Origin: a virus
DNA length: 41,011 bases
Virus record (IMG/VR): IMGVR_UViG_3300036761_003414
Location: 1-41,011 of that record
Reading direction: 5' to 3' (one strand)
Under the pieces are notes generated by a model. That model was given only the letters and a program-made list of their open reading frames with translations. It searched no databases and was not told where the DNA came from. Shown one piece after another: positions 6,953 to 37,523 of this stretch. Position numbers and translations under genes: made by a program. Each line of letters starts with the position of its first letter. The first letter of the stretch is position 1.

Positions 6953-7027
6953 ATACGACCTCGACTTTGGGTACAAGTATATAGAGAGGAGACGTTCTCA
7001 TCACCCCTTGAGAGGAGGTGAAAAAGA

Positions 7028-21700: not shown

Positions 21701-22343
21701 CATGTCCGCATTTTTCCCCGTCTTCGCCGTGCTTGAAACGATTGGCATTGACTATATGTCCTTCTTTAAAGAGTACGTAAAAAATAATGAGTCGTTAATC
21801 CGGCGCACGACCCAAAGTAGCGATGCCGATACGTATCTCACCAAGATACTCCACCACAGCGTAATCCGCCTATCGGATTTCAAAGAAACTGCGCAGTGCC
21901 AAAGCTTAGCGCGCATAATAGCCAACCGCTCATGGCGCCAAGAACTCAACGATACAGGTGTAGGGGTATTCTATGACGAACTAAAACAATTAATGCTTTT
22001 CAATATCGAACAAGTTATAACGCACCTCCTACCTAGTCACGAGCGAAACACTAACGCCACAAGTGCTTTGAATTTACGTAATACGCTCGGACGACATCCC
22101 GCGGCACTAACCGATGAAGCGATTAAAGAATCCGGTATCCTCAGTCGTGCTTCTATGTCTATGGGAATAGGCGTGAGCATCGACAACGTCATGGTATTTA
22201 ACGGGAGATACTGGTTGGATGCCCACGACGCAAACATTAAGAGCGCTTCTTTAGCAGATAAGGGAAAAGAAAAGAAAAAAGAAGAAGCAGAAGAAATGCA
22301 GGAGGATGAGATCACGGAGGACACAATCGATGCTGACTTCTAA
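18705..22343 (+). CDS. Primase-helicase fusion (CHC2 zinc finger, Toprim-like, P-loop ATPase)
   Basis: This 1212-residue protein starts with a DnaG-type zinc finger: Cys53, His58, Cys76 and Cys79 around CPHPDH and HCFGCG. A Toprim-like segment follows, VVVEGEFDAL (Glu372, Asp376), with a second conserved position IGDA at about 421-424. The usual DxD acidic pair there appears reduced to one Asp. The C-terminal half has a P-loop, GETGSGKT (806-813), and Walker B CVDELES (Asp862, Glu863). The tail is highly charged (KEKKKEEAEE). It should lay RNA primers and unwind DNA at the fork, like T7 gp4 in role, though the ATPase is not of the T7 DnaB type by its motifs. AGGAG precedes the ATG. Confidence 0.85.
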   Translation: MAKTNKAAEIVKFDKSLIDRVWEGITVENWLNLQNSGSLGLRKNREDDIVSLCPHPDHADTSPSFHIYPKKKHGHCFGCGYHPIDPIELISNICKTTYTETLIYISSSYPGVQFLKNSTYITQSEQQLLTQESKELFYEVCHQQLILAAQAYAKGLAIAANPRNKIEEDLYSDDGAEGDVSKLKDDPDYPGDTTTDSVPPPPFPSNVIPITAGKDGIGLLDFDYATQTIHWLVSVRKLPLNILPDLPIGIVPPISAIPNLAKQLLESPNRKTKHDNALALIQTISEFLNKDVNKGVSNSATGGVVFPLCTAEEHIAAFRIRLPNAVGANKRITLLQDNFEPGMGFFGLNFGPYREFLRNNSTQKIKSYVVVEGEFDALQPMVQCLQTGVVECAVVSAGGTSSLAAFDSVIQLNDVKYLYLIGDAPSKGNSNSSANVLAQWINTITAPECGVVIFTDAAWEKLAPAEDLDNAYVLPALSPQFISSTILDKDSYKPAWSWLVDAAILQLQEYTADDVTTMTSTAISVGRTLHRKEDIEAYVQALCNLYPILRPNPIKNGIISNDSNIKTYIDRVAEVLRSLFTVIGVDRSSSEGATLVLYNKRQKQFARVKLDSERSIIQEIASITGTIITFLEKEVGLPSCIVIPDNSLSRIDKELRYILREAVLQLVPDAPSMSNLKNIRNGYHHLDSKEILVHGTDAYDIIRTDNDISYNLLPSPRIGNILVDTYKDDAVINRKWFNRLEPLTPDVLRKAQQYDMKKVYHDLCRYFDTGFIFAQQDLNCQLLAALILTFPIMSCFDRQVVVHFTGETGSGKTTLQSVFSEVEKDSSNLSIQLLYASRYVQHITVPALAFDAEDCAILYCVDELESDTVKNKQATDQFLEMLRGATSGNSSRTTMNRNGEGTITRCINVPVIFGSITGTDKPQDLNRIISINMVKRIGYSDPNSSIHRVFSPQELYDLRLAVNFGMYSHIPKVREHYTAFRSSYDKIKDQLESSVEFRFMSAFFPVFAVLETIGIDYMSFFKEYVKNNESLIRRTTQSSDADTYLTKILHHSVIRLSDFKETAQCQSLARIIANRSWRQELNDTGVGVFYDELKQLMLFNIEQVITHLLPSHERNTNATSALNLRNTLGRHPAALTDEAIKESGILSRASMSMGIGVSIDNVMVFNGRYWLDAHDANIKSASLADKGKEKKKEEAEEMQEDEITEDTIDADF

Positions 22344-25300: not shown

Positions 25301-25776
25301 AGACGTTCCTCGGTCGACGACGTCACCTCAGTCTGAAGAATCTCCCCAGCATCATGCGCGGGCGCGCAGAACGCCAAGCGGTCAATTTCAAGATCCAAAA
25401 CACCAGCGCCGAGATGGTGCTCGACGTCCTCTGCGCCACCGACCCCGTCATCAGCAACGACTTCGGCGGGAACATGCTCAACACGGTACACGACTCGCTT
25501 GTGTTCCAAATCCCGAAGAAGTACGTGCACCAAATGCCCGCCTTCATCCAGGACTACGGTGTGAAACAGGTCGCACAGAAATTCCCCTGGCTCCCTGTCC
25601 CCTTCTCATGGGACGTCGAAGTGGGCAATACCTACGGCGATTTGATGCCCGTGAACACCTTCCTATCGGACCACCCCGAGCTCGCCAAGAGCGACAACGA
25701 CGATGACGATTATCTGGACCTGGAAATCAGAAATGCCCTAGCTGCAGAAGGTGCTGCAGAACAATCCGCGGCCTAA
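22330..25776 (+). CDS. DNA polymerase I-family replicase: UDG-like, 3'-5' exonuclease and polymerase, with mini-intein
   Basis: This 1148-residue protein has an N-terminal four-cysteine cluster (Cys17, 20, 31, 34) and a uracil-DNA-glycosylase-like fold (about 53-225; YICVGESPY and FVMGATGLKALG). A DnaQ-type proofreading exonuclease follows (Asp259-x-Glu261 in IDTET, NAKYDLK, and AAFDTD). The family A polymerase carries motif A Asp837 (NADAKAAEVRV), the O-helix RKNIKRVVFGILYGA and motif C VHDS (His1054-Asp1055). SPO1-like phage polymerases have a comparable UDG-like extension. A 130-residue intein interrupts GTATNRL/SSSEENMQNIP. ATG 22330 is chosen because ACGGAGGA lies eight bases upstream; ATG 22306 abuts its own GGAGG too closely. 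The third codon position turns markedly GC-rich after about 23630, except in the intein. Confidence 0.93.
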   Translation: MLTSNDSPNVAGPIADCYTCKMAGAWNFPNCPTCPSYQKNHFAVSHGSGPQTANYICVGESPYILTLASSGNHSGWIKDIERSARLTFETLDKKYNNPVGHFTYAVRCQAEKPSAKEINACAPNLIAEILECSVPEKPICIFVMGATGLKALGIQFKKYMEVIGKTIETTIEGRRAFVFVSLSKRQLVTKAGYSEILTRQVEVFLEMVKKNMEGTLEDQRTILARLSEKYRYPKTVQELDTLVTDILRETTDKTPISIDTETNSLYPHRSKLKLLMVSVSWGTGRSAAIQLEHPESVLKLEDARPHLERLFSSSRYKVFANAKYDLKVLERKGFKIRRLSWDVMLGEHLIEEDKKGFYGLKSITRLRLPEFAAYEDELKEIYAKRMDNDSLVPAPVTEEDEEKLLLKRVKPKRKKKVKAEGPKLSRLEKKLAEDDGFQAIPLRDLLQYAAFDTDVTLRIAAQQRKELTNESRKLEKKRLEFLGSTSANSRNIGETLCPIPNPPQYNMSARIIPTTRVLAKMELHGMAVDREYILQLQIAMDSYLASSSAIFSDMLPVGFADFNPASTQHVAKALFSTGYLQPGTGALVCYAGKIEPPRTEKGAISTDAKFLKFLATTHKCALSTALLEFRGISKARSTFIENIEVLSREDGRMHSNFHQHGTATNRLCVSKNTILETSLGSYKIPEVDVTKKPKIISHTGKWQTITDLTYKGRDSMFRVTLRNKSKIEVTAAHRFLTPTGYKHLYNLHPSHEVMTYQDGLFVANRIASIRPLGVMDVWDIQVEEDHSYVAHGFVNHNSSSEENMQNIPKKIGKPPHQYNIKRVFISTHPDLILVNADAKAAEVRVYAAYSHDKALIAALNDGMDPHSFFASTVYNVDNLLKDIAPGQRSGVLETIGVDMKHAWNYADFEARDSIKKTDKVYGEQLDALRKNIKRVVFGILYGAAPKKIAGIVGIPDNQAQAIIKSLFDMFPSIKGYIRATKDQVTHLGIVETFLGRRRHLSLKNLPSIMRGRAERQAVNFKIQNTSAEMVLDVLCATDPVISNDFGGNMLNTVHDSLVFQIPKKYVHQMPAFIQDYGVKQVAQKFPWLPVPFSWDVEVGNTYGDLMPVNTFLSDHPELAKSDNDDDDYLDLEIRNALAAEGAAEQSAA
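24331..24720 (+). other. Mini-intein in DNA polymerase, 130 residues
   Basis: The insert begins with Cys (CVSKNTILETSLG), has the block B motif TAAH and ends with block F/G VEEDHSYVAHGFVNHN, followed by Ser+1. It separates GTATNRL from SSSEENMQNIP, which is contiguous in family A polymerases (TGRLSSSxPNLQNIP). All canonical splicing residues are present, including the penultimate His. There is no homing endonuclease domain. Its base composition is AT-richer than the polymerase sequence on both sides, consistent with separate ancestry. Confidence 0.95.
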
Positions 25777-25786
25777 CGCTCAATTC

Positions 25787-27412
25787 TCAATCCTTCCAAA
25801 ATTTAAGATCATTCATGATGATCTTAAAAGCCAGCCAGCCAAAGAGTCCCGCGTGGAGGCAGTCGTCCGGTTTCTGTGGCGAGTGCCTCCACACCTTCCT
25901 ACCCAACATCGTCACCTCTTCGTATTCATTTAAGATGTCCGCAAGTGCAATGGACATCTCCTCCCTAGGCCCAAACTGTACCAACTTTTTCTTAAGCAAC
26001 ATCACATAGTTATCGATCATTGTCGTGCGGTCTAGTAGATAACGGTCTTGCCCGTTCCAATTCAAAGCCTTGGCATACGCTCCGTATTGCACCTGCGTCA
26101 TACGGTTGGCACCCAACGCATTTCGCAAGACGTCATTCGGGAGGCTTCCTTCTCCCGCATCACCCACGGCGTAAGCCACCCGATAATAATTACAGACTTG
26201 GATAATCTCTTCGACTGAATTTACAGGGTTAATACCAGGATAAATACGATAAAAAAGACAGCGAAGAATTCCGCTCGCTTTATGTTCTCCCCATATCCAT
26301 AACACAGTACGCGACACGCCAGACGTCCCACCTCCCGACCAGTCTATTCCCGCAACAGTTATTGCAATACCATTCATATTCATAGCGTTTGGGACAGCTG
26401 AGAGTGGGAGTCCCGTACAAAGTCCCTCAAGCTCGTCTTTCGCAATCATTCTCGCGCCGAGCGAGTCCGAAACACCTAATACCTCATTTCGAAATGTCGT
26501 CGCTGGAAGATTTTCACGTTTATAAAGAATGTCTTTCCACTGCTTCGTAGCGAAACGAACATGGTCCTGGTTATACCCCGCCTTCTCTACCGCCACAGGG
26601 TTACAATCTGGCATCGAAGGTTGACAGATGTGAAAACCTTTTATGCGATCTTCCTCTTCAATTAAGGACTTCTCTGCTAAGGGTTCGGCTGTATCAAGCC
26701 ACTGTCCCTCAAATGGATTCAAATAAGACCCGCACTTCAGACAAATCATGCCTTTCAAGCCAATCGATTTTTCTGAATCTGCGTACTGATACTTCTTACA
26801 ACTATTGCATTTCATTACCCATTCAGTCTGGGTACTCATCTCCCAGAGGTACTGAATGGTGTTCTCCATCGTCTTCGGTGTCCCCGCGTAGGTCTCATAG
26901 GCGTATTGTGAACGCGCCAAACATTCGTTACCGACCGTAATCACCGGGTTATAAAGAAGGTCCTGGACCTCATCATAAACATTTCGGTCGGTAGACAAAC
27001 CACGGATACGGTCAGCATCGTCCAGTGCATAAGCAAACGCCATCTCAGACCCGTTCGTGAACTGCTTGTGCAACACGCGGTCGGAAAGCTCGGGACTCAA
27101 AAACTTTTTATGGATGATGGGGGAGTACCGCATAACTTTTGTAACGCGCGAATTCGAAAAACGCATGGTCTGTTCTTTCGAAGGCGTTACAAACATTACG
27201 GAAAAATGTGGTATAAGAGAGCATTCAGCTATGCCGAAATTTGCCAGGGTCGTGGACTTCGCGACCTGCCGGCTAGTTTTTAATAACGTTCTGCGCCAGC
27301 GCCCATCGTAAAAGGCCCGATGCGCTGGCCACATATCGAGACGGAAAGGTTTACCGTTTAGATATAACCAGGCCTCACAGACTTCGCTAATGGTGGCGGA
27401 AACTGACTTCAT
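25787..27412 (-). CDS. terL: Terminase large subunit
   Basis: This 541-residue protein packages DNA into the prohead. It has a terminase-type Walker A, TSRQVAKST (46-54), and Walker B VYDEVQD (Asp147, Glu148). A zinc-finger insert follows (Cys202-x2-Cys205 and Cys224-x2-Cys227). The C-terminal RNase H-like nuclease has acidic residues in AGIDWSGG, VGDAGEG and the final PDDCLHA. The gene is isolated on the minus strand between two plus-strand blocks. It converges on the polymerase gene across only ten bases, and its start is 22 bases from the divergent gene at 27435. No clear ribosome binding site is visible upstream, which is odd for an essential gene. Confidence 0.92.
   Translation of the reverse strand: MKSVSATISEVCEAWLYLNGKPFRLDMWPAHRAFYDGRWRRTLLKTSRQVAKSTTLANFGIAECSLIPHFSVMFVTPSKEQTMRFSNSRVTKVMRYSPIIHKKFLSPELSDRVLHKQFTNGSEMAFAYALDDADRIRGLSTDRNVYDEVQDLLYNPVITVGNECLARSQYAYETYAGTPKTMENTIQYLWEMSTQTEWVMKCNSCKKYQYADSEKSIGLKGMICLKCGSYLNPFEGQWLDTAEPLAEKSLIEEEDRIKGFHICQPSMPDCNPVAVEKAGYNQDHVRFATKQWKDILYKRENLPATTFRNEVLGVSDSLGARMIAKDELEGLCTGLPLSAVPNAMNMNGIAITVAGIDWSGGGTSGVSRTVLWIWGEHKASGILRCLFYRIYPGINPVNSVEEIIQVCNYYRVAYAVGDAGEGSLPNDVLRNALGANRMTQVQYGAYAKALNWNGQDRYLLDRTTMIDNYVMLLKKKLVQFGPREEMSIALADILNEYEEVTMLGRKVWRHSPQKPDDCLHAGLFGWLAFKIIMNDLKFWKD
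25802..25828. repeat. Perfect 11-bp inverted repeat at a convergent junction
   Basis: TTTAAGATCAT and ATGATCTTAAA flank a five-base loop. It lies in the last codons of the terminase gene, 25 bases after the polymerase stop. On the minus strand it is followed by a short ATTTT, so it may weakly terminate terminase transcription. On the plus strand no T-run follows. Confidence 0.4.
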
Positions 27413-27434
27413 CTAACGAAAGGATAACAGACAA

Positions 27435-27662
27435 ATGACGAAAAACAATAGTGAATCCACAAATGTAGAGGATGCGAACTTCTTCGATCTCCCTCGGATG
27501 ACCTTCGAAGAGATAAAAAGCGAATTACTAACGAACTCTGAGAACCCCTTGTACCGTAGAATACATTGCGTAGATGGAGGGGTAGGGCTGGGAAAATCTC
27601 AAAACGAAATCTCTCGCTTATTTGCGAAAATTTTCCCACCAATGGGTCGTGAGGAAATCTAA
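27435..27662 (+). CDS. Mini P-loop protein: truncated duplicate of the MoxR N-terminus
   Basis: This 75-residue protein aligns without gaps to the start of the next gene's product. By my count 26 of the first 60 residues are identical, including the opening NNxESxNVE and the Walker A GxxGLGKSQ at residues 48-55. After the P-loop it continues for 20 unrelated residues and stops, so it lacks Walker B, sensors and the lid. The coding DNA is also similar (32 of the first 36 bases). It keeps its own start with AAGGA upstream and lies six bases before the full gene. It may be a pseudogene remnant or a small protein that binds nucleotide or modulates the ATPase. Confidence 0.6.
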   Translation: MTKNNSESTNVEDANFFDLPRMTFEEIKSELLTNSENPLYRRIHCVDGGVGLGKSQNEISRLFAKIFPPMGREEI

Positions 27663-27843
27663 ATAAAATGGCGCAAAACAATAATGAATCCAAAAATGTA
27701 GAGTACGCAGACCTCTACAATGTTCCTCGTGTAACTATCGGCGAGGGTAAAGAAGAAATCAAGATGAACTTCACCTACCGCTTATTCCGAGGCGTATTAT
27801 GCTTCGTGGGGGAAGCGGGACTAGGAAAATCTCAAGCAGTACA
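27435..27843 (+). repeat. Tandem partial duplication of the MoxR 5' end
   Basis: About 165 bases from 27435 are repeated in diverged form from 27668. Similarity is strongest in the first 36 bases and again around the P-loop (GGGCTGGGAAAATCTCAA against GGACTAGGAAAATCTCAA). The duplicate ends before the rest of the ATPase gene. Confidence 0.6.
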
Positions 27844-28969
27844 ACAAGCCGCACGTGAACTTGACGCGGACATCTGCGTATTAAATACCGCGCACTTCGG
27901 ACTAATGACAGCAGGCGTCCCATCTACTAGAGACGTCGAGGAGGGTCGCTTTAAGATCAAAGTACCCACGATTCTTCCTCGTGCCGGAAAACGGAGCATT
28001 CTTGTTTTCGACGAAATAAACATGGGCCAACGCCACGCCATGGACATGTTTTTCACCATCCTTGAAGATCGGCGTGTCTTCGACTTCTACCTCCCTGACG
28101 ACTGTCTCGTAGTCGCGCTCATGAATCCCGCCACCGGGTCTTACTCCGTCCAACAAATCGAAAACAACGCGGCGCTGCGCCGGCGTATGAAGTTTATGTA
28201 CGTCATCTCTTCCACTGAAGAGTGGTTGCAGCACGCGCGTACTCGTGAGTTCCACTACAGCGACCGCATGTCCCCCGTCGTGCAATCTCCTGAGGTCCGT
28301 GCCATGTACGAGAACCACTATGAAAAAGCTGACCAACACAACCTCGGGATGTCCTGTCACGAGGCTGTCCGATCATTCATCGGAACATCACCGACCATGC
28401 TCTACGACGAGCAGAACAAGCTCAACAACCGGCCCTTCGCCTGCCCGGCTTCCTGGCAGACGATCTCCCTCGACTGCTACGCGCTCGAGCACGTGGGCAT
28501 CCCCCTGACGAGCAGCCGAGCTCTGTCGCGCTTTGGCGCTACATTGAATATGTCGACTGCGACCCAGTTCCAGTCATTCGTCGAGGACAACAGCGTCATC
28601 CTGAGTCCCTTGGAATTTCTACAGGACTACAAGACTTTCATGCATAAGTTCCAAGAGGTGGAGGACGCCGGCAAGCAGCCGCGCCTCGTGGAGTTCGTCT
28701 ACAACCTGCTAAATTACATGTTCGACTCGGAGTACAACGTCGACAAGGCCTACCCCGCGCTCTTCCACTTCTTCGAGAGCTGCGCCGCGGAATACTCGGC
28801 GCTCCTCACGGACAACATCACCGCCACCGCAACCCGGTACGGCAAGCCTGCCTACCGTGGGTTGCTCATCAACAGCTTCGTCAAGGACAAGGACCGCTTC
28901 CGGGCTCACCTGCGACACACGGAGAAGGCCCATGAGGCCGTAGACCGTTTCATCCGCCTCAACAACTGA
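27668..28969 (+). CDS. MoxR-family AAA+ ATPase
   Basis: This 433-residue protein has Walker A GEAGLGKS (48-55), Walker B ILVFDEINM (Asp115, Glu116), a sensor 1 Asn in VALMNPA, and an NNAALRRRMKF arginine region. That is the layout of MoxR/RavA-type ATPases, which usually act as chaperones with a VWA-domain partner. Such a partner lies nearby at 30812-32455, on the same strand but beyond two minus-strand genes. The C-terminal 180 residues are helical and unassigned. Codon composition becomes much more GC-rich after about 28050. GAGGAAA precedes the ATG. Confidence 0.85.
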   Translation: MAQNNNESKNVEYADLYNVPRVTIGEGKEEIKMNFTYRLFRGVLCFVGEAGLGKSQAVQQAARELDADICVLNTAHFGLMTAGVPSTRDVEEGRFKIKVPTILPRAGKRSILVFDEINMGQRHAMDMFFTILEDRRVFDFYLPDDCLVVALMNPATGSYSVQQIENNAALRRRMKFMYVISSTEEWLQHARTREFHYSDRMSPVVQSPEVRAMYENHYEKADQHNLGMSCHEAVRSFIGTSPTMLYDEQNKLNNRPFACPASWQTISLDCYALEHVGIPLTSSRALSRFGATLNMSTATQFQSFVEDNSVILSPLEFLQDYKTFMHKFQEVEDAGKQPRLVEFVYNLLNYMFDSEYNVDKAYPALFHFFESCAAEYSALLTDNITATATRYGKPAYRGLLINSFVKDKDRFRAHLRHTEKAHEAVDRFIRLNN

Positions 28970-28970
28970 A

Positions 28971-29747
28971 CTAGCGCTGCCGCGCGGTCGAGAGATCGTC
29001 GGCGAGCTGGTCAGCCCACCTCTTCACGTACAGGTAACAGGCAGACAACTGGGCAAGCTGGACGCCAAGCTCGTTCTCGAAGAACTCGGTTCTCTCGAGG
29101 ACGGTCTTGTCCAAGGCTTCCCAACTGTCTGCCACTTCTTTTTTCAGGGCAGTGGCATTGGAATTCTTGGGGAAGAGTCCCTCCAGGTTGTCCGCGACGA
29201 AATCAGCCAGGGGCTCGGGCGGGAACACATATCCCTCACGAAACAAACATACCGCAATATATTGCTGGACATCCTCGTCGAACTCGGGTATGGTTACCTG
29301 GTCGTTATCCAATCCCCTAATCACCCCAGCTTCGTAGACAGCCCAAGCCATGTGAGCAGCAGTGCATTCTTGCAACGCCTCTGGGTCAAAAAGTTCCCCA
29401 TTCAAGGCCTGGACGGTGCGCTGGAAGACCAGGTTATCCCAGTAAAAAGCGGGATGGACGATGAGGGAGATAGCTGCCTGCAACTTGTTCCGCTCTTCGT
29501 CGGGGAGATTCACCCCATCCTTGTCCAGCGTCAGCCACACCGTCTCGGGCTCCCACTTCAGGATGTCTTCCCCGTAGACCGTCCGCGCCGCAAGATACAA
29601 CCCCGCCGCCGTATTCGCCTGCGGGTCTTTGAGTACCTGCAGGGCGCCGTTGTTCGACTGCTCAGACGCCATCTTCGCCATCATACCCTGGCTGATGCCG
29701 GGTATCAGTCCCCAGAGCGTCTTGAAGCCTTCATGGAGCTCTGTCAT
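28971..29747 (-). CDS. Hypothetical protein, helical
   Basis: This 258-residue acidic, helix-rich protein has no motif I can name. Its ATG overlaps the stop of the gene at 29744-30748 as ATGA, so the two form a coupled pair. They lie between the MoxR ATPase and its VWA partner on the other strand, and end one base from the MoxR stop. The region is GC-rich compared with flanking sequence. It could be a virion component, since other minus-strand genes are structural, but this is only by association. Confidence 0.6.
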   Translation of the reverse strand: MTELHEGFKTLWGLIPGISQGMMAKMASEQSNNGALQVLKDPQANTAAGLYLAARTVYGEDILKWEPETVWLTLDKDGVNLPDEERNKLQAAISLIVHPAFYWDNLVFQRTVQALNGELFDPEALQECTAAHMAWAVYEAGVIRGLDNDQVTIPEFDEDVQQYIAVCLFREGYVFPPEPLADFVADNLEGLFPKNSNATALKKEVADSWEALDKTVLERTEFFENELGVQLAQLSACYLYVKRWADQLADDLSTARQR

Positions 29748-30748
29748 GCGGCGTAGGGCGCGAGCTGCGTGGCCAAAGACGCCTTCATGTCGGCCGGCAA
29801 GGTCTGCAGGACCGTCTCCAGCATCGCCGGGTCAACCACACCCCCGGGCGCGAACTCTTCCACGAAGTCCGGGCCGAGGGCGTCGTTCCAAAAACTGGCC
29901 GGCAGTGAGGCGAGCTTGTTCTTGTCGAAGAGCATCCCGTTGAGCTCGAGCTGCTGAGCGGCCACCTTGGTCGTGTTCCACACCGTCAAGATGGGGTTCG
30001 GGAGGCTCTTGCCCACGTACTTCTCGATGCCGGCCAACTTGTCGAGCTCGGCGATGGCCTGGGCCAACTTCACTTGGTCCTCTTTCGACCCCAAGTATTT
30101 GTTGACATGCCGATAGGATTGCCCTAAGCTCTTGAACTCCACCGCAGCAATCTTATTTCCTACCCATTCAGAAGCTTCCGCTCTCGCATCTAACCAGTCC
30201 GCAAGGACTTCGGTATCCGTGAGCGTGTTGCCGGCGTACTTCTGCAGAATCGGATTCACCGTAACCCCAAAAGTCTCTGCCACCTTCGCCAAGTTATGAC
30301 AGGCCTCGGTGCGCTGCTCGTCCGTGAGCACGTGCGCCTGCTTCTCCAAGGCATCCACGGCGTACAAGACGTCTTCGGCCGATGCCACTCGAAAACGATT
30401 CAGCTCGGGGAGCAGGTGATACACCGCGCCGGCCGTCTTGGTATTGGACGGAACCAGCAAGTCCTCGGGGATGGAATGCGCGTCACACGCCAGCTTCAGG
30501 CTTTCCTGCACATGCGCGGGAAGTTCCCCGGCGTGCTTGGCGTAAGCCTGTGAAATTGCTGCGTGTTCCTTGGTATGAATAGGAAAGACCCGCTTTTCCG
30601 GCCAAGCAAACGCTCCCGCGGGGAGAGCTTCAAACTCCTCAGGGGAGAGCTCCGCTGCTTTGGCGAACTCTACCAGCCCCGGATACTGCTCAGACAGGAC
30701 TCGAAGATTCGAAAAAGCAGGATCATTTGTGACGTCGATGATGCTCAT
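29744..30748 (-). CDS. Hypothetical protein with FAWPEKRxFPIH motif
   Basis: This is a 334-residue protein. ATG 30748 is preceded by GAGAGGA at good spacing and is preferred to a longer reading from 30790. Near residue 55 it carries AFAWPEKRVFPIHTKEH, a short pattern I recall from various phage head-associated or uncharacterised proteins (Ala-Phe-Ala-x-Pro-x-x-Arg-x-Phe/Tyr-Pro-Ile-His). The rest is helical and acidic with no catalytic signature. It leads a two-gene minus-strand unit. A virion or maturation role is plausible but not shown. Confidence 0.6.
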   Translation of the reverse strand: MSIIDVTNDPAFSNLRVLSEQYPGLVEFAKAAELSPEEFEALPAGAFAWPEKRVFPIHTKEHAAISQAYAKHAGELPAHVQESLKLACDAHSIPEDLLVPSNTKTAGAVYHLLPELNRFRVASAEDVLYAVDALEKQAHVLTDEQRTEACHNLAKVAETFGVTVNPILQKYAGNTLTDTEVLADWLDARAEASEWVGNKIAAVEFKSLGQSYRHVNKYLGSKEDQVKLAQAIAELDKLAGIEKYVGKSLPNPILTVWNTTKVAAQQLELNGMLFDKNKLASLPASFWNDALGPDFVEEFAPGGVVDPAMLETVLQTLPADMKASLATQLAPYAA

Positions 30749-30811
30749 TGGGTATCCTCTCAACCGTGCGTGATACATGCACAACTCCAAGTATATTAGA
30801 AAGGACCAGGA
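30749..30811. promoter_or_regulatory. Divergent intergenic region ahead of the VWA/reverse-transcriptase unit
   Basis: This 63-base gap lies between divergent starts. On the plus strand TATATT (30792-30797) could be a -10 element, but no good -35 is seen and it lies only about 15 bases before the ATG. AAGGACCAGGA serves as the ribosome binding site of the VWA gene. I see no inverted repeats of the kind that would form a retron msr/msd. Confidence 0.3.
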
Positions 30812-32455
30812 ATGTCAGCCCTAGACCGGACACCTCTGCAAAATGCGTTTTACTGGCTCGGAAGTTATCGTGGCGACAATAACTTCTTCGGACGAATTCT
30901 AAATAGTTGCCGCCGTAATTACACAGTCCTGAAAGCTCCCGCAGGCATTGCAATTGATAACGCAGGCAGATTCTGTTTGCATGTCGACCTTAAAAAGTTC
31001 AACGCCCAACCCGTTCCCATGCAGCTCTGCATATTGGTACACGAAGCTGCACATCTAGGATTTCGTCATCACGAAAGAATGCTTCGAACAATTGGAGGGG
31101 CTAGAGTCCTCTCGGCCAATCCAAAACTACGAAAAATATGGGAGACACTGAATATAGCCGCAGACCTCACGGCGAACGACCTCGCGGTACGGCCCTTAAT
31201 AGTAGGAAAAAACGTAGAAGCCTTTAAAATTGTTTATGAAAAGGCACTCTTCCCTGAAAAATGTAACCTCCCTCAGGGGTTGAGCATGGAAGAATACTTT
31301 TTGCTACTAATGGAAAGAGAAAATGCGATAGCTGAAATTCTTAAGAAGATAAAAGAAAACGAAATGATGCTTAATATGAATTGCTTCGGGGACCCCGATG
31401 ATGAACCTGAAGAAGGTCAAGACCCCGGAGACAACGAAGACCCTGAACGCGAGGAAGACCCCGAGGATAATGAAGACCCCGAAGATGACGAGAATGACGA
31501 AGGAGACGATAAAGACCCCGAAGATGATGACTACGAGGACGAGGACGACAACGACTACGGGGACGACGAAGACCCCGAGAGCGAAGAAGACCCCGAAGAT
31601 GATGAAGACTGTGGCGACTTCGATCCACTGTTCCCCCGGGACACTGAAAAGGCTCTAGGGAAGATACTGAATATGTCCGGGGGCGAGCTCGAGCGCCTCG
31701 CAAACGACATCCAGCGAAACGCTGCGTCTGCCGTGCGTACCGCTGTCGAGCAAACAACACGCAACCGCGGAACCATTCCCGGGTGCATGCAAAAGATTGT
31801 CGAAGAGCTTCTTACAGAACCCCGGGTACCCTGGCCTATCGTCCTCAGGAACCAAATCAAGAGCGTCATTAGTAACAAGTTGATTTATTCTATGAATCAG
31901 CCAAACATCGCGCTGTATCCAGTCCTCGATGAAGGGATTGAGCCTTTCCCCGGTTACAACCACGACTTCACTTTTCGTATCACACTCGCAACAGATTCAA
32001 GCGGGTCCATGAGCGACGACAACTTCGCAATCTGTATCAACGAACACATAGCCATCCTACGTCAATTCCAAGGCGTAATGCTTCGCGCCATCACCTTCGA
32101 TCACGGGATTCAATACGAAGAACTCTTTACCCGCACCTCGAGTGACTCCGAGATTCAAGAGATAGCCAAAACACTGCGCATTCGCCACGGATATGGAGGT
32201 ACTGACTTCTGTGCTCCCTTTCGACGCGTACTCGGGAAAGACACCGCCAAAGACTGGTCTGTACCGAGGCCCGACACGCAACCCTTCGCAACCGACCTGA
32301 TGGTCATCTTCACCGACGGAGAAGCTCCCGTCAGCGACATACAAGGAGGACCCATGCCTAGATTAAAACCCCCCTGCCCCGTCATCTGGGTCATCTGCCC
32401 AAAAGGTTCAGTCCACCCTGCCATGCAGGATATCGTGGTGAAAATTGATGACTGA
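30812..32455 (+). CDS. DUF2201-type metallopeptidase-like / VWA-domain protein
   Basis: This 547-residue protein combines an N-terminal zinc-peptidase-like domain (LVHEAAHLGFRHH, HExxH at 77-81; then NIAADLTAND near 114-123) with a C-terminal VWA domain. The VWA part has a metal-binding MIDAS, TDSSGSM (Asp394 onward), and FTDGEAP. Between them (191-270) is an extremely acidic low-complexity stretch built of EDPEDDE-like units. This is the DUF2201 architecture that typically pairs with MoxR ATPases, here at 27668-28969. The pair probably forms a chaperone or protein-remodelling machine acting on a bound client. It begins a four-gene unit with overlapping ends that includes the reverse transcriptase. 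Confidence 0.85.
   Translation: MSALDRTPLQNAFYWLGSYRGDNNFFGRILNSCRRNYTVLKAPAGIAIDNAGRFCLHVDLKKFNAQPVPMQLCILVHEAAHLGFRHHERMLRTIGGARVLSANPKLRKIWETLNIAADLTANDLAVRPLIVGKNVEAFKIVYEKALFPEKCNLPQGLSMEEYFLLLMERENAIAEILKKIKENEMMLNMNCFGDPDDEPEEGQDPGDNEDPEREEDPEDNEDPEDDENDEGDDKDPEDDDYEDEDDNDYGDDEDPESEEDPEDDEDCGDFDPLFPRDTEKALGKILNMSGGELERLANDIQRNAASAVRTAVEQTTRNRGTIPGCMQKIVEELLTEPRVPWPIVLRNQIKSVISNKLIYSMNQPNIALYPVLDEGIEPFPGYNHDFTFRITLATDSSGSMSDDNFAICINEHIAILRQFQGVMLRAITFDHGIQYEELFTRTSSDSEIQEIAKTLRIRHGYGGTDFCAPFRRVLGKDTAKDWSVPRPDTQPFATDLMVIFTDGEAPVSDIQGGPMPRLKPPCPVIWVICPKGSVHPAMQDIVVKIDD
31382..31621 (+). repeat. GA-rich low-complexity coding repeat (acidic EDPEDDE units)
   Basis: Degenerate repeats based on GAAGACCCCGAGGAT encode the acidic linker of the VWA protein. 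The irregular unit length and intact frame show protein-level low complexity and not a CRISPR or VNTR locus. Such a stretch may vary in length between related phages. Confidence 0.8.
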
Positions 32456-32978
32456 GCCGATCCCCATTCTCCGGATAAACCGTCCAGACCGCTTTTCACG
32501 GGTGCACGTCTCTTCTAAAGAACCCAACCGAATACCTTGGAACATCTACTACATTGTCCCAACGGTTAACGAGGAGGAATTGGCGAAACTCTTTAGGACC
32601 GCCTGGGTCGTGCATCCCAACACAAATACAACCAGCGTTATAACCACCGAATGGGCCTATTCAGGACATTACCCTCCCGCCACCTACATCCGCGAAGAGC
32701 TCCGAAATCTTCTCTATCGAAATAAAGCTTGCCTTGTAATTCCCACGTACATTAATCGAGACCAGCATTACGCCTACCAATACGCACGAAAAGCAACGAA
32801 AGCAAAAACAACAAATCTAGGCACTGGTCTAGGAAAATTCTATTTCCTGCACGAGAGCAAATTCGAGCCCGCGTGTCTGTACTGCCCCCGCTCCGTCTAC
32901 TTCCTGACAGGCGCGTGCGTCCCTGGAACAAATTCCTGTATCTCAACCTATTGGAGGAAGAATGGTTCCCTCGTATGA
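32448..32978 (+). CDS. Cysteine-rich protein upstream of reverse transcriptase
   Basis: This 176-residue protein is unrecognised. Its C-terminal part contains Cys143-x2-Cys146-x10-Cys157-x6-Cys164, a likely zinc site, after an alpha/beta N-terminal region. A basic patch (ARKATKAKTT, near 113-122) could bind nucleic acid. ATG 32448 overlaps the VWA stop by eight bases; the TTG just upstream is less likely. It overlaps the reverse transcriptase gene by 17 bases, so it is almost certainly co-expressed with it and is a candidate partner protein. Confidence 0.7.
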   Translation: MTEPIPILRINRPDRFSRVHVSSKEPNRIPWNIYYIVPTVNEEELAKLFRTAWVVHPNTNTTSVITTEWAYSGHYPPATYIREELRNLLYRNKACLVIPTYINRDQHYAYQYARKATKAKTTNLGTGLGKFYFLHESKFEPACLYCPRSVYFLTGACVPGTNSCISTYWRKNGSLV

Positions 32979-34107
32979 TTTTTATCCCCTCCCAGTAGAT
33001 AGCCCTATACTCCCACGACCCTTCGATTCCACGAGCCTCTCGAACTTAATACAAATTAGAAATAAAACGCTCTGGTACGTCGTCGTAGCAGACGACAAGA
33101 GCCGGTACATTCATCTCCATATCAAAAAGAGGCGTGGGAATATACGACTACTCCACGCTCCAAACCCCGTAGTCAAATTCGCACAGAAGAGGCTGAACAA
33201 GAACTTCTTAGACCTGCTACAAGAACACCTCCCCATCTACGTCACCGCCTACCGTGTAGGAAAAGATATCGCCTCCGCGGTAACACGGCACATCGCCAAA
33301 TGTCCGATATGTGACGCTGCAATCGAGACCCCGCCCAAACACAACTGCCCCCGCAAGGGAGCCTATATTCAAATGGACCTAAAAGATTTCTTCCACCGCA
33401 CCCGTCGATGGTGGGTAGGAGAGATGCTCGAAAAGAATCTAGGGTATCCAAATGAAATAGCAGGTCCGATAAAAGGGATGGTCACCGTCCGTGACATTCC
33501 TTGTCCCACTAAAAGATACCCCGATGGGATACGTTTTGGTGTCCCTCAAGGCGCTCCTACCTCTGGCGCCATCTGCAATCTCGTCGCGTACTATCGTCTG
33601 GACAAACCCATCTGTGAATACCTCGAAACTCTAAACGTGAAATACAATCTGCACGGCGAACGTGTCTGGGTATACTCTCGGTATGCTGACGACCTCGCTT
33701 TTACGTGCGGACGCGATTTCCCATTTAATGAAAAGGTCGAGATTGTTCAAGAGCTCATTCGAATCATCGAAGAGACAGGTTACGCTGTTAACCGTCGCAA
33801 GGTGCATATCCGCTCTTCGAATAGAACGAAGGACCTATTGGGCCTGAACTTCAGCGATAGGATTACAATCGCACGCGTGGAATACCTGCGTCTTCGCGCT
33901 ATCGTCCATAACTGTCTCATTTATGGATTAGAGACGCAATACAGGCGTGCCAAATTCGGTTCCCCAGAGCAGTTACTGTTCTGGTTGAAAGGCAAAGTAA
34001 CGTATGTACAGCAGGTCGACCCTAGAAAAGGAAGTAATCTCCACACCGAGCTCTGTGGAGCCATCGCCAACTATTCAGCGCTACACTGTAGCGAAGATGG
34101 GACCTAA
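32962..34107 (+). CDS. Reverse transcriptase, retron-like but divergent, with zinc-finger insertion
   Basis: This 381-residue protein has all core RT motifs: KKRRGNIRLLHAP (fingers), motif A QMDLKDFF (Asp139), motif B GVPQGAPTSG (193-202), motif C RYADDLAF (Asp243, Asp244), motif D with Lys280 region and LLGLNF (291-296). It resembles retron and related bacterial RTs, but the retron NAxxH is ASAVTRH (104-110) and VTG is LLG. An insert before motif A (CPIC at 114-117, HNC at 127-129) looks like a zinc finger. There is no maturase or endonuclease domain. GGAGGAAG precedes the ATG. No msr/msd-like RNA, template/variable repeat or group II intron structure is seen nearby. Substrate and product are unknown. 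Confidence 0.93.
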   Translation: MVPSYDFYPLPVDSPILPRPFDSTSLSNLIQIRNKTLWYVVVADDKSRYIHLHIKKRRGNIRLLHAPNPVVKFAQKRLNKNFLDLLQEHLPIYVTAYRVGKDIASAVTRHIAKCPICDAAIETPPKHNCPRKGAYIQMDLKDFFHRTRRWWVGEMLEKNLGYPNEIAGPIKGMVTVRDIPCPTKRYPDGIRFGVPQGAPTSGAICNLVAYYRLDKPICEYLETLNVKYNLHGERVWVYSRYADDLAFTCGRDFPFNEKVEIVQELIRIIEETGYAVNRRKVHIRSSNRTKDLLGLNFSDRITIARVEYLRLRAIVHNCLIYGLETQYRRAKFGSPEQLLFWLKGKVTYVQQVDPRKGSNLHTELCGAIANYSALHCSEDGT

Positions 34108-35416
34108 AGACGACACTGGACTTCTAATATTCGAGACATGCCTGACCACCCGCCAAGAGCTCTACGATTTCGCCAAATCCCTCTCCGACTTGAAACTGGA
34201 ACGACACTTATATATAAAAGTTTTCAACGACGAACTGACAGTATCAACCTATCCAGACCTCAAGAATAGTGGATTCGCAACGGACTCCTTCTGGGATTTA
34301 GTTGGATATATCTCCCCGGAAGGTGAAATAAAAATTGGTACCATCCACGAATTCCGCCGCGACTGCATGTCTCCTCGCGTCCTATTCGGCTGTTCTAACT
34401 GCGTTTCAGACTCCTCCGAATTTCCCGGAGACCCCTGCCTCTTTTATCCGCGTCCTAAATACCTCGAAAATGATTTGTACGCCGAGGACTGGATAGACGA
34501 ATTAAAGAAACGAAAATTCCCAGCTATTGGAAATTTTAAATATATCTCACCTCTTTATACGAAGCCTCTCACCGTAAGTACTGGAACACATCGCTATCGC
34601 TATAGCGAACCTCGTACGCCCATAGGGATCGCCCCATTTATCCGTATCCCCGAAGACCACTCTTTTGAGTACTGCGAAGAACTGCAAGAACGCCAAAGCA
34701 CTAGTGCTACGACTAAAGCGAAAATAAAAAGTACGATTAAAAACCAATGTGCGCATTGTACGAAGAAAGAAGTGTGCACTCTTTACCATGGACAATATAA
34801 GTCGAAGCAGTACGTCTTAAGGTGTGGATACCCCGAAACTATTACCGAAGAACAATTACAGGCGTTTTACTTATTAAAAATATCCGGTATAGACAGAGAA
34901 GACCTCGCATTCATAAGTTGGCACCAAGGAAACCTTGCTTGGAAACAAGACCGTTTTAAGTTGGGAATTAGACTAAAAGCTAGCAGTGAGAGAGGGCGCG
35001 GACTACGCGCAATCGTTTACCACAAAACGGATGTCTCACATGTTGTCGAAAACTTCTCGATAGAAACAGCTGCCGATTACTTAAAAGAAAACTATCAACG
35101 CGAGAACCCCGAATGGAGGCACTGTCCCGAATACTACCCACTCGGGGACAAAGCCGCGGCCCTCATCATGATGGTCACGGAAGAAGTCTATCGGTCTCGC
35201 GCATCCCGCGGTGCTTTCGGGTCCGGCACATGCTGGCCTCTCTTACATGTGCAGCCCGACCGCTACAAGGTAAACGTAGAGGCCATCTTCCACGCAGACC
35301 GCGGACGACCCGCCCCCCGTTGTACCACCCAAACGTACACCAGCATGTTCGATGTCCACCGCTACTACGGGCATCAGTACATCCACCCAAACGCGTATCC
35401 TGAGAAATCAGACTGA
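34097..35416 (+). CDS. Cysteine-rich hypothetical protein downstream of reverse transcriptase
   Basis: This 439-residue protein is not recognised. It overlaps the RT gene by 11 bases, with ATG 34097 chosen over an upstream in-frame ATG at 34004 that would lie deep in RT. Two cysteine sets are visible: Cys90, Cys99-x2-Cys102, Cys114, and Cys218-x2-Cys221-x5-Cys227 with Cys243. These could hold zinc or an Fe-S cluster. The C-terminal half has charged and aromatic residues, with several His and Tyr near the end (DVHRYYGHQYIH). It is the last gene of the unit and is followed by a UUCG-loop terminator. A role as RT partner or effector is inferred only from position. Confidence 0.72.
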   Translation: MGPKDDTGLLIFETCLTTRQELYDFAKSLSDLKLERHLYIKVFNDELTVSTYPDLKNSGFATDSFWDLVGYISPEGEIKIGTIHEFRRDCMSPRVLFGCSNCVSDSSEFPGDPCLFYPRPKYLENDLYAEDWIDELKKRKFPAIGNFKYISPLYTKPLTVSTGTHRYRYSEPRTPIGIAPFIRIPEDHSFEYCEELQERQSTSATTKAKIKSTIKNQCAHCTKKEVCTLYHGQYKSKQYVLRCGYPETITEEQLQAFYLLKISGIDREDLAFISWHQGNLAWKQDRFKLGIRLKASSERGRGLRAIVYHKTDVSHVVENFSIETAADYLKENYQRENPEWRHCPEYYPLGDKAAALIMMVTEEVYRSRASRGAFGSGTCWPLLHVQPDRYKVNVEAIFHADRGRPAPRCTTQTYTSMFDVHRYYGHQYIHPNAYPEKSD

Positions 35417-36427
35417 GGAAGGATCGAAATCCGGGCAGACGGCGAGGACCGCAGCAAGGGCTGCATCCTCTGCCAGCTGCGCGGATGCCAAAGAGGCTTC
35501 GGCCTCTTTTTTTGCTGTGACAGCATTTGCGGCCGTGACGTTGGCGGTAGCAATGACGCCTTGCTGAGATGTGTAATAGCCTCCAACACTGAGGTGGAAG
35601 GCCAGGAATGCCGCGTCGAGAGAGGTGCCGTTGTAAGCTGCTAAAGTTCTAGCCTTAAGATTCGCTTCCATCGTCTGTAGGTGGTATAACCAGGCTTCTT
35701 CAGCCGGGGTTCCTCCTACAGTTCCAGTAGATACGTAATTGTATCCTGTTACTTGCAAGAAATCATCGGTAAACTCTCCGAACCGATCCGTCATATTCGT
35801 AAAGAACGTATTCTCAGCTAAGAAATAATTCGCCCAATAAATCACATACGACTGCGACGTGAAATCCAAATCTCTCTTATAAACGTCACCCAACGTCACG
35901 GCGTCCTGTGCCGCATCCTGCGCCAAGGTCAGCGCTAAATCAGCTGCCGCGAGATCAACATCCGCTGCGACACGCGCGTCTTTTGCTGTCTCATAATCAT
36001 CTTTAAGCTGCTGTTCATACGTAGCTTCTGCTGTTGGATGATTTACGGTATCTGACCCACTGAAATCCACGGAGTACGTCCGCCACGCATTCACCGAATT
36101 GTCGATACGCGACCGCACCGCGTCTTTCGCCTGCACCGCCGTGTTCAAATCGGTATATCGAACTTGTAAAGTTGAAGCTAAAAAGAACTCCTGGTCGTCT
36201 GCTATCGCTACTGCACGCGTAGTACCGATGTTCTCCAAGTCATACGGATTTCCTAACCGCACAAACGTATCCCGTGTCGTATCGAGCTCGTCCAAGATTT
36301 GATACACAAAAATATTCGCATGAGGCAGATCACCCTTGTCTATAACGGCAGCATCTATCTGATAGACGTTCGTACCATCTGGGAGCGCTATCGTTGTCCG
36401 ATCAAACTGAACTCTCGTATCGAGCAT
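35408..36427 (-). CDS. Probable virion protein with long Ala-rich helices
   Basis: This 339-residue protein has Ala-rich coiled-coil-like stretches (about 130-165 and 295-330) around a Tyr/Thr-rich core, and an N-terminus of beta character. Composition and the following virion-like genes suggest a structural or tail-associated protein. AGGAGCG lies upstream of the ATG. It ends convergently with the RT unit, overlapping the last gene there by nine bases. The plus-strand terminator of the RT unit lies within its 3' coding sequence. No enzymatic motif is visible. Confidence 0.6.
   Translation of the reverse strand: MLDTRVQFDRTTIALPDGTNVYQIDAAVIDKGDLPHANIFVYQILDELDTTRDTFVRLGNPYDLENIGTTRAVAIADDQEFFLASTLQVRYTDLNTAVQAKDAVRSRIDNSVNAWRTYSVDFSGSDTVNHPTAEATYEQQLKDDYETAKDARVAADVDLAAADLALTLAQDAAQDAVTLGDVYKRDLDFTSQSYVIYWANYFLAENTFFTNMTDRFGEFTDDFLQVTGYNYVSTGTVGGTPAEEAWLYHLQTMEANLKARTLAAYNGTSLDAAFLAFHLSVGGYYTSQQGVIATANVTAANAVTAKKEAEASLASAQLAEDAALAAVLAVCPDFDPSSV
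35490..35513 (+). terminator. UUCG-loop rho-independent terminator of the RT unit
   Basis: AAAGAGGC and GCCTCTTT pair perfectly around a TTCG tetraloop, followed immediately by a T-run (35505-35513, part of it in the stem). This is a textbook intrinsic terminator 74 bases after the stop at 35416, embedded in the opposing gene at 35408-36427. On the minus strand it ends with only three Ts before other bases, so it works mainly on the plus strand. Confidence 0.9.
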
Positions 36428-36432
36428 TTTAT

Positions 36433-36807
36433 CTACGCTCCTGTGTAAACAAAGGTCGTCACACCTTCGAAGCCTGCTGAATATTCGATGTAATCATCCA
36501 CCAATGTCCGCGTTCGAGCCTGTGTATACGCCGCAAAAGACTCAGCGGTAGCTTGCGATTCAAAGTCCCTTTGAACCTCGTCAAGCCTATAAAACTCCGC
36601 ACCCGCCGCAAAGGCCTCGGCATAGGAGGTATACGTGAGATGCTCGATATCGTAGACCGTCGCTACATGCGAGAAGGCCTGGGTCTCGGTTGTGAAAACG
36701 AAGATAGAACCAGAAATATCTGCTGCGGCCGTGACCTCATCCAAAACACGGAAGAGATTCGCTTCTGTGATGGACTGTGTTTGTTTTAGCGTAATAGAAA
36801 CAGCCAT
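36433..36807 (-). CDS. Small probable virion protein
   Basis: This 124-residue protein is rich in Thr, Ala, Glu and aromatic residues, with no cysteines and no catalytic motif. Its ATG overlaps the stop of the gene upstream at 36807-37487 as TGATG, and it ends five bases before the next start, so the three form one unit. The composition matches phage structural proteins. Some sequence similarity in character to its neighbours (helical Ala/Glu segments with scattered Tyr) suggests related roles. Confidence 0.6.
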   Translation of the reverse strand: MAVSITLKQTQSITEANLFRVLDEVTAAADISGSIFVFTTETQAFSHVATVYDIEHLTYTSYAEAFAAGAEFYRLDEVQRDFESQATAESFAAYTQARTRTLVDDYIEYSAGFEGVTTFVYTGA

Positions 36808-37487
36808 CAGTCATATTCCTCCGTGATTGTACCCGTGAAAGATTCTTCTTCGAGGTCCGTGGCGTCTATAAGAGAAGCCGCTTCAGCTCGAAGGGCCGCG
36901 TACTTATTCGTAGCTTCTGTTATCGACGAGAAAAGCTTGGCTGCACTTGCAACGCGCACGTACGGGTCATTTCCTGAAGAGTTTTGGTCGTAGCGGCGGA
37001 TAGTGACAATCTGATCTGTTATTTGAGATATCCGTATGACCTCTCCTCCTTCCGTATTTTCTAAAATCGTAAAAGATAAAATCCCGGTAAATCCACATGG
37101 CGGCATAACCGACCCAGATAATCTAAACGCATATAACGACCCCGTGATCTCTTCAATTGAAAAATTCATAGGTGCCGCGGCTCCAAGCTGCACCCACGAT
37201 CCTGGAATGGTATCAAGACGCAGTGTGTCATACATTTGCGGAGTACCTTCAGGAGGGGTCTTCGCATACGAAGCTGCTTGAAACCACTCAAGAGTTGTAC
37301 CTACTGCTAGGTCTTCCAAATCCACGAGCGTTGAAAAGCGCGCGATGTCTTCATCAGCCGTATTAACAACGAGGGACTCCTCGAGCTTCCCAGCTGGGTC
37401 CGTATCGGGCGCCGGCAACACCGTCACCCCCAAAAAATAGCCGTCTTCTAGAACTTCACGACTGTATGTTACATTCATCTTGGCCAT
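36807..37487 (-). CDS. Probable virion protein, beta-rich
   Basis: This 226-residue protein has alternating hydrophobic and polar strands, no cysteine cluster and no catalytic motif. It has a central segment rich in Gly, Pro and Ser (GSVMPPCGFTG) and an Ala/Glu-rich helix near 180-215. It heads the three-gene minus-strand unit. ATG 37487 has no clear ribosome binding site; ATG 37478 is an alternative. A capsid, decoration or tail role is inferred from context only. Confidence 0.55.
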   Translation of the reverse strand: MAKMNVTYSREVLEDGYFLGVTVLPAPDTDPAGKLEESLVVNTADEDIARFSTLVDLEDLAVGTTLEWFQAASYAKTPPEGTPQMYDTLRLDTIPGSWVQLGAAAPMNFSIEEITGSLYAFRLSGSVMPPCGFTGILSFTILENTEGGEVIRISQITDQIVTIRRYDQNSSGNDPYVRVASAAKLFSSITEATNKYAALRAEAASLIDATDLEEESFTGTITEEYD

Positions 37488-37523
37488 GCGATAATCTTAG
37501 CGGTCTTGGAAAGGAGATACAAC

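Follow-up and report, generated by a model that had tools for sequence, protein, structure and literature searches.

A retron-clade reverse transcriptase encoded with MoxR and VWA proteins at a conserved locus of uncultured phages

Organisation of the locus

The 41,011-base IMG/VR virus record IMGVR_UViG_3300036761_003414 (hereafter the window, on the whole of which positions are numbered) carries a reverse transcriptase (RT) gene within a tight unit of four genes on the + strand (30812-35416). The first gene (30812..32455) encodes a protein of 547 amino acids (aa) of the DUF2201 type, which joins a metallopeptidase-like domain with an HExxH motif to a VWA domain with a metal ion-dependent adhesion site (MIDAS) and matches DUF2201_N (E 7e-10), DUF2201 (2e-7) and phrog_1314 (3e-35). 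It is followed by the gene for a 176-aa protein, here called the 4-Cys protein and presumed to be the partner of the RT (32448..32978; C143, C146, C157 and C164 are invariant in 16/16 aligned rows), by that for the RT itself (381 aa, 32962..34107; RVT_1 E 2e-11), which PADLOC retron RT models, a PDB profile search and a tree place in the retron clade, and by that for a 439-aa Cys-rich protein with two conserved cysteine clusters (34097..35416). Successive genes overlap by 8, 17 and 11 nucleotides (nt), and the open reading frames (ORFs), coordinates and overlaps are those given in a preliminary description of the locus.

The same description placed a gene for a MoxR-type AAA+ ATPase just upstream on the same strand. 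This gene (433 aa, 27668..28969, +; Pfam AAA_5 E 2e-8, phrog_1297 E 2e-30) is indeed upstream and on the + strand, but it is not contiguous with the unit, as two opposite-strand genes lie between: a conserved 258-aa gene (o258; 28971..29747, -) and a conserved 348-aa gene (o348; 29744..30790, -, with a probable ATG start at 30748), both of which are present between MoxR and VWA in 14/14 taxa compared. The gene order is beyond chance, recurring in a lineage in which VWA and RT are 59% and 67% identical to those of the window, and across 17 RT lineages.

A family of loci with the same genes

Protein searches of viral contigs returned four close relatives only, and the order is identical in all five records (window included). 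Two of them are near-identical to the window over most of the region (MoxR 87.5%); the other two form a separate lineage, in which identity to the window is 87% for the terminase, 85% for the 258-aa gene, 70% for MoxR, 67-68% for the RT, 59% for VWA, 48-49% for the 4-Cys protein and 28% for the Cys-rich protein. Taken alone, these searches would suggest rarity, because the wide family surfaced only when the RT motif VPQGAPTSG was used as a DNA pattern to scan the IMG/VR viral contigs, a selection in which neighbouring genes were not used. The pattern matched 26 contigs: 24 encode an RT of this family (29-100% identity to the window RT over the matched part, 4/24 being the close relatives already known) and two are chance matches that are not RTs. 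With the window this makes 25 RT contigs, all family members found being uncultured contigs, none flagged complete. As some are near-identical to one another (L130/L150, L133/L138, L139/L144 and L140/L141/L151, plus the close relatives), lineages were counted separately, giving 17 RT lineages under 95% identity; the partial RT of L152 was omitted from this count.

A VWA gene lies upstream of the RT on the same strand, adjacent or one gene away, in 25/25 RT contigs (seen in 22 of the 24 fetched loci and, for L134 and L146, the loci of which are clipped, by whole-record searches). A MoxR gene is likewise found upstream on the same strand in 25/25: in the window, in the fetched locus of 15 contigs (L127, L129-L133, L137-L142, L144, L151 and L152) and by whole-record search in nine (L136, L146, L147, L149, L128, L134, L135, L145 and L150). 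The proposal of a multi-protein RT unit to which MoxR and VWA belong is thus borne out: rather than occurring mostly without these neighbours, the homologous RTs all have both. The RT match in the L150 record includes one TGA codon; the L150 locus as fetched shows an open frame of 391 codons.

The compactness of the unit is also conserved. Of 15 contigs measured, 14 have VWA and 4-Cys genes that overlap or lie at most 16 nt apart (the exception is L131, with 90 nt), and in all 15 the earliest possible start of the RT falls within the 4-Cys gene; the Cys-rich gene overlaps the RT gene or begins at most 10 nt after it in 10/10 lineages measured.

Using the terminase as a query independent of the RT, we recovered seven contigs, four being the close relatives with the unit and two being too short to judge; the seventh (terminase 80% and VWA 51% identical) stops 51 bases past the VWA stop codon, and these 51 bases begin with a plausible N-terminus of a 4-Cys protein. 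A profile scan of genome contigs with a close RT alignment found no relative. In a broader scan of genome contigs, the best 80 of 564 retron-like RT loci were kept, and tblastn with the window proteins against the flanks of these 80 gave no MoxR, VWA or Cys-protein match; the same search against plasmid and phage yardsticks also gave none of these matches, although distant relatives could escape it.

The reverse transcriptase

The codons of the catalytic aspartates D139, D243 and D244 are intact in the window, as first described, and D139 and the YxDD motif are kept in 17/17 lineages. A family profile compared with the PDB finds retron RTs best (Ec86, E 2e-42), with a group II intron RT at 1e-11 and DRT1 at 2e-6. 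On the PADLOC retron RT models the window RT reaches a maximum of 141 bits (best models RT_other, RT_XIII and RT_outgroup), and seven comparison RTs score far above it on their own best models (329-558 bits). Defence-associated RTs, among which Abi RTs were not compared singly, are matched at 2e-6 (DRT1 structure) and 6e-6 (NCBIfam Drt2), against 2e-42 and 3e-33 for retron RTs.

The tree has 72 rows, 17 from the family and 55 retron-like RTs of cellular, plasmid or other phage origin, and the family is a single clade in it with support of 100/100; the outgroups, reduced by hand from 88 to 55, had been selected for matching the window RT well, and include no diversity-generating retroelement (DGR), intron or DRT enzymes. 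The 88 remained from 91 RTs gathered, after L063, L073 and L082 had been dropped for an in-frame stop. A kinship with one Nitrospirae RT, which appeared on a long branch in a first tree of 91 rows, was rejected, that RT falling on the other side in the 72-row tree.

Two motifs that define retron RTs were looked for. NAXXH of region X is present in 0/17 lineages, its histidine being kept in 17/17, and VTG of region Y is present in 0/17, with LLG, VLG or MLG instead in 17/17. As neither was found, the module is not filed here as a retron. These motifs are not universal in the wider retron-like clade either, since among the 88 related RTs NAXXH occurs in 37 and VTG or ITG in 47. According to PMC6868368, NAXXH is present in 14/16 validated retron RTs, a few of which deviate at the N of NAXXH or in VTG.

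A zinc-knuckle-like CxxC...HxC insertion between region X and the D139 motif of the window RT (33301..33348, +) occurs in 8/17 family lineages and in 0/88 other retron-like RTs; being present in 8/17 lineages only, it was rejected as a family hallmark. With the RTs of two distant members of the family as queries, 42 and 22 records of annotated phages were matched (best identities 33% and 30%), several of which are named retron-type or borne by named isolates.

The two cysteine proteins

The 4-Cys protein fills the slot between VWA and RT. Its overall identity to the window drops to 17% in the 16-row alignment, throughout which four cysteines are invariant, as are two prolines and two tyrosines; the slot in L134 is seen in part only. 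L146 has no separate 4-Cys gene, and its RT frame carries a four-cysteine N-terminal extension, with a possible GTG start that overlaps the VWA stop by 4 nt (a later GTG keeps the cysteines, the first ATG loses them). As its cysteines are spaced differently from those encoded by the 4-Cys gene, this extension is a probable, not a certain, fusion of the 4-Cys partner.

The Cys-rich protein is found in 12/13 lineages with sequence reaching far enough (a partial copy in L135 was left unaligned), and C90, C99, C102, C218, C221 and C243 are invariant in 13/13 rows. Pfam gave nothing over a cut-off for the two Cys proteins of the window, and the two families had no convincing relative in Pfam, PHROG, PADLOC or PDB, single-member matches of E 0.0014-0.085 and two PDB matches of E 0.27 and 0.63 being taken as noise; PADLOC, run for the 4-Cys family with the window member, has no model for the two Cys proteins or the VWA protein of the window, nor for 13 members of the Cys-rich family. 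AlphaFold2 gave an unusable model of the 4-Cys protein (3 rows, mean pLDDT 33) and a model of the 439-aa protein (13 rows, mean pLDDT 58) that is better in its C-terminal half, for which a Foldseek search of PDB and viral models returned no hit at E 0.001 (best VIA-align Z 4.9), and no fold is assigned.

The 3' end of the Cys-rich gene (34948-35323) is a 375-base tract with 32 substitutions relative to L007 in an otherwise near-identical stretch; 8 of the 32 changes fall at window adenines, that is, without adenine bias, and the tract probably reflects allele exchange or recombination. Beyond the gene, the terminator that had been placed at the end of the unit corresponds to a hairpin followed by a T run (35490..35509, +) found by pattern scan only: the pattern is present, but such patterns are common here (18 on both strands against 9.6 expected) and this one falls within the opposite-strand ORF 35408-36427.

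Inheritance and selection

Pairwise identity of the RT correlates with that of the terminase (terL; rho 0.92, six taxa), o348 (0.86), MoxR (0.85), VWA (0.84), a 339-aa gene (o339; 0.80) and o258 (0.79), and 0/500 permutations reached the observed value for each of these genes. Because RT divergence tracks the terminase and other phage genes, the locus has the appearance of a core phage module passed on vertically, and not of a stray defence cassette. That it is inherited together with terminase-side genes favours a lasting role in the cycle of the phage itself; defence or counter-defence, considered in the preliminary description, is a less likely alternative.

Non-synonymous divergence (dN), in comparisons where synonymous sites are near or beyond saturation, is 0.16-0.28 for the RT, which has the lowest value of the unit in 3/5 comparable pairs; the Cys-rich gene is the fastest of the unit (0.52-0.84).

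MoxR, the VWA protein and the genes between

HExxH and DxSxS (MIDAS) of the VWA protein are present in 22/22 rows, near-duplicates included, and the two proteins have the features of MoxR/vWA chaperone pairs, namely an AAA+ ATPase and a vWA domain fused to an N-terminal metallopeptidase-like domain. Among annotated phages, 73 records match the window VWA protein and 8 match the window RT weakly, with at most two shared by organism name.

Within the VWA gene, 31403-31609 encodes an acidic low-complexity Asp/Glu-Pro linker, with imperfect repeats at 18-nt and 39-nt spacing. A short TATAG-like motif stands just before the VWA start in L127, L131, L132, L136, L140 and L152, and also in L128, L133, L135 and L145; it may be a promoter read by the RNA polymerase that the phage encodes. 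The low synonymous variation at the VWA start raised the idea of an RNA concealed there, which was rejected, the aligned DNA showing the short promoter-like TATAG motif in two groups.

Position 27435, at which the preliminary description opens the region, is not the start of the MoxR gene, which begins at 27668, and belongs to a 75-aa ORF (27435..27662, +). This ORF is a partial duplicate of the MoxR N-terminus, 59.6% identical in 57 aa to the beginning of MoxR in near relatives, and probably a non-functional remnant. The near relatives have a single MoxR start where the window has the duplicate ORF, and the window MoxR is 87.5% identical to theirs while the flanking terL and 258-aa genes are 100% identical; with its divergent MoxR and duplicated N-terminal fragment of 75 aa, 27435-28969 is likely a recombination scar. 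For o258 and o348 no Pfam family was found over the cut-off, and a search of annotated phages at E 0.01 gave no match to the 348-aa gene.

Phage context

The strand of the module also carries genes for a helicase, exonucleases, ParB, a primase, DNA polymerase A and RuvC, and the opposite strand carries the terminase, an RNA polymerase and a weakly portal-like gene (PHROG E 0.002; no Pfam match). The DNA polymerase A gene (22306-25776; DNA_pol_A E 3e-63) is interrupted in frame at about residues 682-806 by an insert whose match to intein splicing is below threshold; this insert moves within the group, since the near-identical L007 is without it and L006 has a larger one. In the fused RNA polymerase (1794 aa, 1595-6976, -), which was found in 9/14 RT contigs searched, residues ~789-1118 are insert-like; this insert is spanned in G002, G003, G007 and G011, absent in G005, G006, G009 and G010, and its start weakly matches a thymidylate synthase PHROG, which may reflect an intein or homing domain.

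Interpretation

The reading that we favour, and hold with moderate confidence, is that the locus is a vertically inherited core module of a clade of large uncultured phages, in which a complex of a catalytically intact, retron-derived RT would synthesise DNA for the phage's own cycle under the control of MoxR and the VWA protein. Its grounds are the gene identities, the conserved order, co-inheritance, purifying selection, the catalytic residues, the lost retron hallmarks and the lack of room for a separate msr-msd between VWA and RT; from these we infer a physical complex, DNA synthesis with its template or primer, and the action of MoxR/VWA. In such a complex the RT would work with the 4-Cys protein as its direct partner, as suggested by the overlapping genes, by the constancy of this partner and by its fused form, and the Cys-rich protein would be an additional, faster-evolving subunit in most lineages. 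The complex would make DNA from RNA, or self-primed, and the metallopeptidase-VWA protein with MoxR would assemble, remodel or proteolytically reset it, the HExxH site of the VWA protein possibly cutting a client. In a model put forward for VWA proteins, they bind clients, which are altered and then let go by MoxR rings (PMC7159879); on this model the co-encoded VWA protein would be what most obviously connects MoxR with the RT complex. Complementary DNA synthesis could then be coupled to remodelling by MoxR/VWA, as the preliminary description supposed.

Rather than a defence role we favour, with modest confidence, one in the handling of the phage's own nucleic acids, and more weakly a coupling of the activity to replication or recombination, given that the helicase, exonuclease, primase, DNA polymerase A and RuvC genes share the strand of the module. 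Apart from intron enzymes, the known RTs of bacteria belong mainly to defence, diversity generation and CRISPR adaptation. The present family suggests that the phages with the module copy some RNA into DNA, and reverse transcription may be a routine part of the life cycle of a DNA phage, since the RT is locked in a conserved locus and evolves with the terminase. The unexplained MoxR/VWA pair of phages would at the same time gain a concrete candidate client, the RT complex. More tentatively, and with some doubt, we consider that the locus may represent a new RT machine, in which a core RT of a double-stranded DNA phage has Cys-cluster partners and MoxR/metallopeptidase-VWA control and dispenses with an msr-msd, a DGR template and an intron; its DNA would, in the ordinary course of infection, be made from phage or host RNA, or be protein-primed like that of some antiviral RTs.

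Several observations weigh against the favoured reading. The MoxR gene is set apart from the unit by the two opposite-strand genes (28971-30790), and the terminase search, our control made without the RT, reached near relatives only. L149 is without the Cys-rich protein, an unrelated short ORF standing in its place, so that this protein is not always needed. The identity of the RT has its lowest correlation with that of its presumed partner, the 4-Cys gene (rho 0.60, 0/500 permutations), and the 4-Cys gene correlates with terL at rho 0.26 (77/500 permutations as high), which may fit a fast-evolving short protein; the correlation of the RT with terminase-side genes would also be expected from passive linkage. 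The three pairs in which dN favours the RT are all from the same three contigs, and the VWA gene is below the RT in L128/L145 (0.19 against 0.25) and in the window compared with L008 (0.27 against 0.28). The fused RNA polymerase was not found in 5/14 contigs, four of 20-33 kb and one of 113 kb. The strand of the module is not purely replicative, as it also carries an endolysin-like gene. Lastly, Vibrio phage D520, a smaller, N4-like phage, and Salicola phage SCTP-2 have MoxR and VWA and no RT match.

Among the other explanations, the one that survives best, although we think it rather unlikely, is phage-borne retron-like defence or counter-defence, in which RT-made DNA would exclude competing phages or jam host immunity, with the Cys-rich protein as effector or opponent-facing surface. 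The kinship of the RT with retron RTs, in both the PADLOC models and the PDB profile, agrees with this, as does the rapid evolution of the Cys-rich protein, which is 28% identical where the RTs are 67% identical. Defence cassettes are, however, usually patchy and mobile, and this module, in the lineages seen, has a single syntenic position and varies in step with core genes; PADLOC matches neither the window's Cys proteins nor the 13 Cys-rich members, and the retron hallmarks are absent throughout the family.

It is unlikely that two unrelated modules share one operon, the MoxR/metallopeptidase-VWA pair serving virion assembly and the RT with the Cys proteins something else. A role in virion assembly has been proposed for the MoxR and metallopeptidase-vWA pair of group 2.2 jumbo phages (PMC7824862), the opposite-strand neighbours here include the terminase and, weakly, the portal-like gene, and the pair must have RT-independent roles because it is found without an RT match in other phages such as D520 and SCTP-2. 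Against this separation, in 0/25 contigs are VWA and RT parted by more than the 4-Cys slot, and the VWA and 4-Cys genes overlap or nearly abut in all measured contigs except L131.

A true retron, with its msr-msd RNA lying within a coding sequence or at another place in the genome, is improbable. The RT does lie in the retron clade and keeps the region X histidine, some validated retron RTs deviate in the same motifs that are missing here (PMC6868368), and about 230 nt are free directly after the RT in L149. A separate msr-msd does not fit between VWA and RT, because there is no gap above 90 nt in the 15 contigs, where VWA, 4-Cys and RT genes overlap or nearly abut, and in 25500-37500 no Rfam family rose over its gathering score. 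Windows of 20 codons with a synonymous difference below 0.35 are confined, in the group with the best sampling (four to seven sequences for each gene), to the ends of the 4-Cys and RT genes, which overlap the next gene, the VWA start, and a position near the o348 start (judged from the alignment column), which faces the VWA start. The absence of NAXXH and VTG from all lineages tells against a retron as well. A group II intron ribozyme was also looked for, and the intron families of Rfam gave nothing in 25500-37500 up to an E of 1.

A DGR acting on a neighbouring gene is hardly credible and was rejected: DGR RTs do occur beside MoxR-vWA genes in bacteria (PMC10907252) and the 3' part of the Cys-rich gene varies between near-identical phages, but the PDB profile finds retron RTs, no pair resembling template and variable repeats (TR/VR) is present in 27000-36500 (a TR farther away was not searched for), and the variable tract lacks adenine bias and looks like recombination.

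Comparison with known systems

With retron RTs (Ec86, Ec67; PADLOC RT_XIII, RT_other and RT_outgroup) the module RT shares the clade (E 2e-42 to Ec86; 141 bits), YxDD and the region X histidine. Unlike them it is without NAXXH and VTG (17/17), without msr-msd space between VWA and RT and of low PADLOC score, and the module has its own accessory proteins and is co-inherited with phage genes.

The preliminary description knew of no system linking MoxR/VWA to an RT; this was too broad, as DGR RTs beside MoxR-vWA have been described, the RT being of another class (PMC7159879 and PMC10907252). These DGR-linked MoxR-vWA (VMAP) ternary conflict systems likewise group an RT with a MoxR ATPase and a vWA protein, and they differ in their DGR-class RT, TR/VR, lectin-type target and occurrence in multicellular bacteria, whereas the present module has a retron-clade RT, no TR/VR found nearby and a place in a phage core locus. 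No effector domain was found over the Pfam cut-off in the neighbours, a search in which no VMAP-specific profile was used.

Among annotated phages, the closest are Salmonella phage Arash and Vibrio phages D181, D148 and D69, which resemble the window in the fused RNA polymerase (~35% identity) and the terminase (~30%). Tested as the closest by terL and RNA polymerase, Arash and D181 have no RT, VWA or MoxR match, so that the set is absent together; the RT alignment used matched 10/10 family records in other runs, the Arash/D181 search itself having no positive record.

The MoxR and metallopeptidase-vWA proteins of group 2.2 jumbo phages and of D520 are alike in phrog_1297, phrog_1314 and the HExxH plus MIDAS architecture (PMC7824862). 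D520 and SCTP-2 differ in having no RT match, and in D520 the MoxR and VWA genes are neighbours, whereas here the VWA gene heads the RT operon and MoxR lies behind two opposite-strand genes. In those parts of the open-access literature that were available, subscription journals lying outside the search, we found no phage retron-like RT joined to MoxR/VWA. As far as we have seen, then, the RT clade and the MoxR-VWA pair are known, and what is new is their combination, the RT lineage and its core status in these phages.

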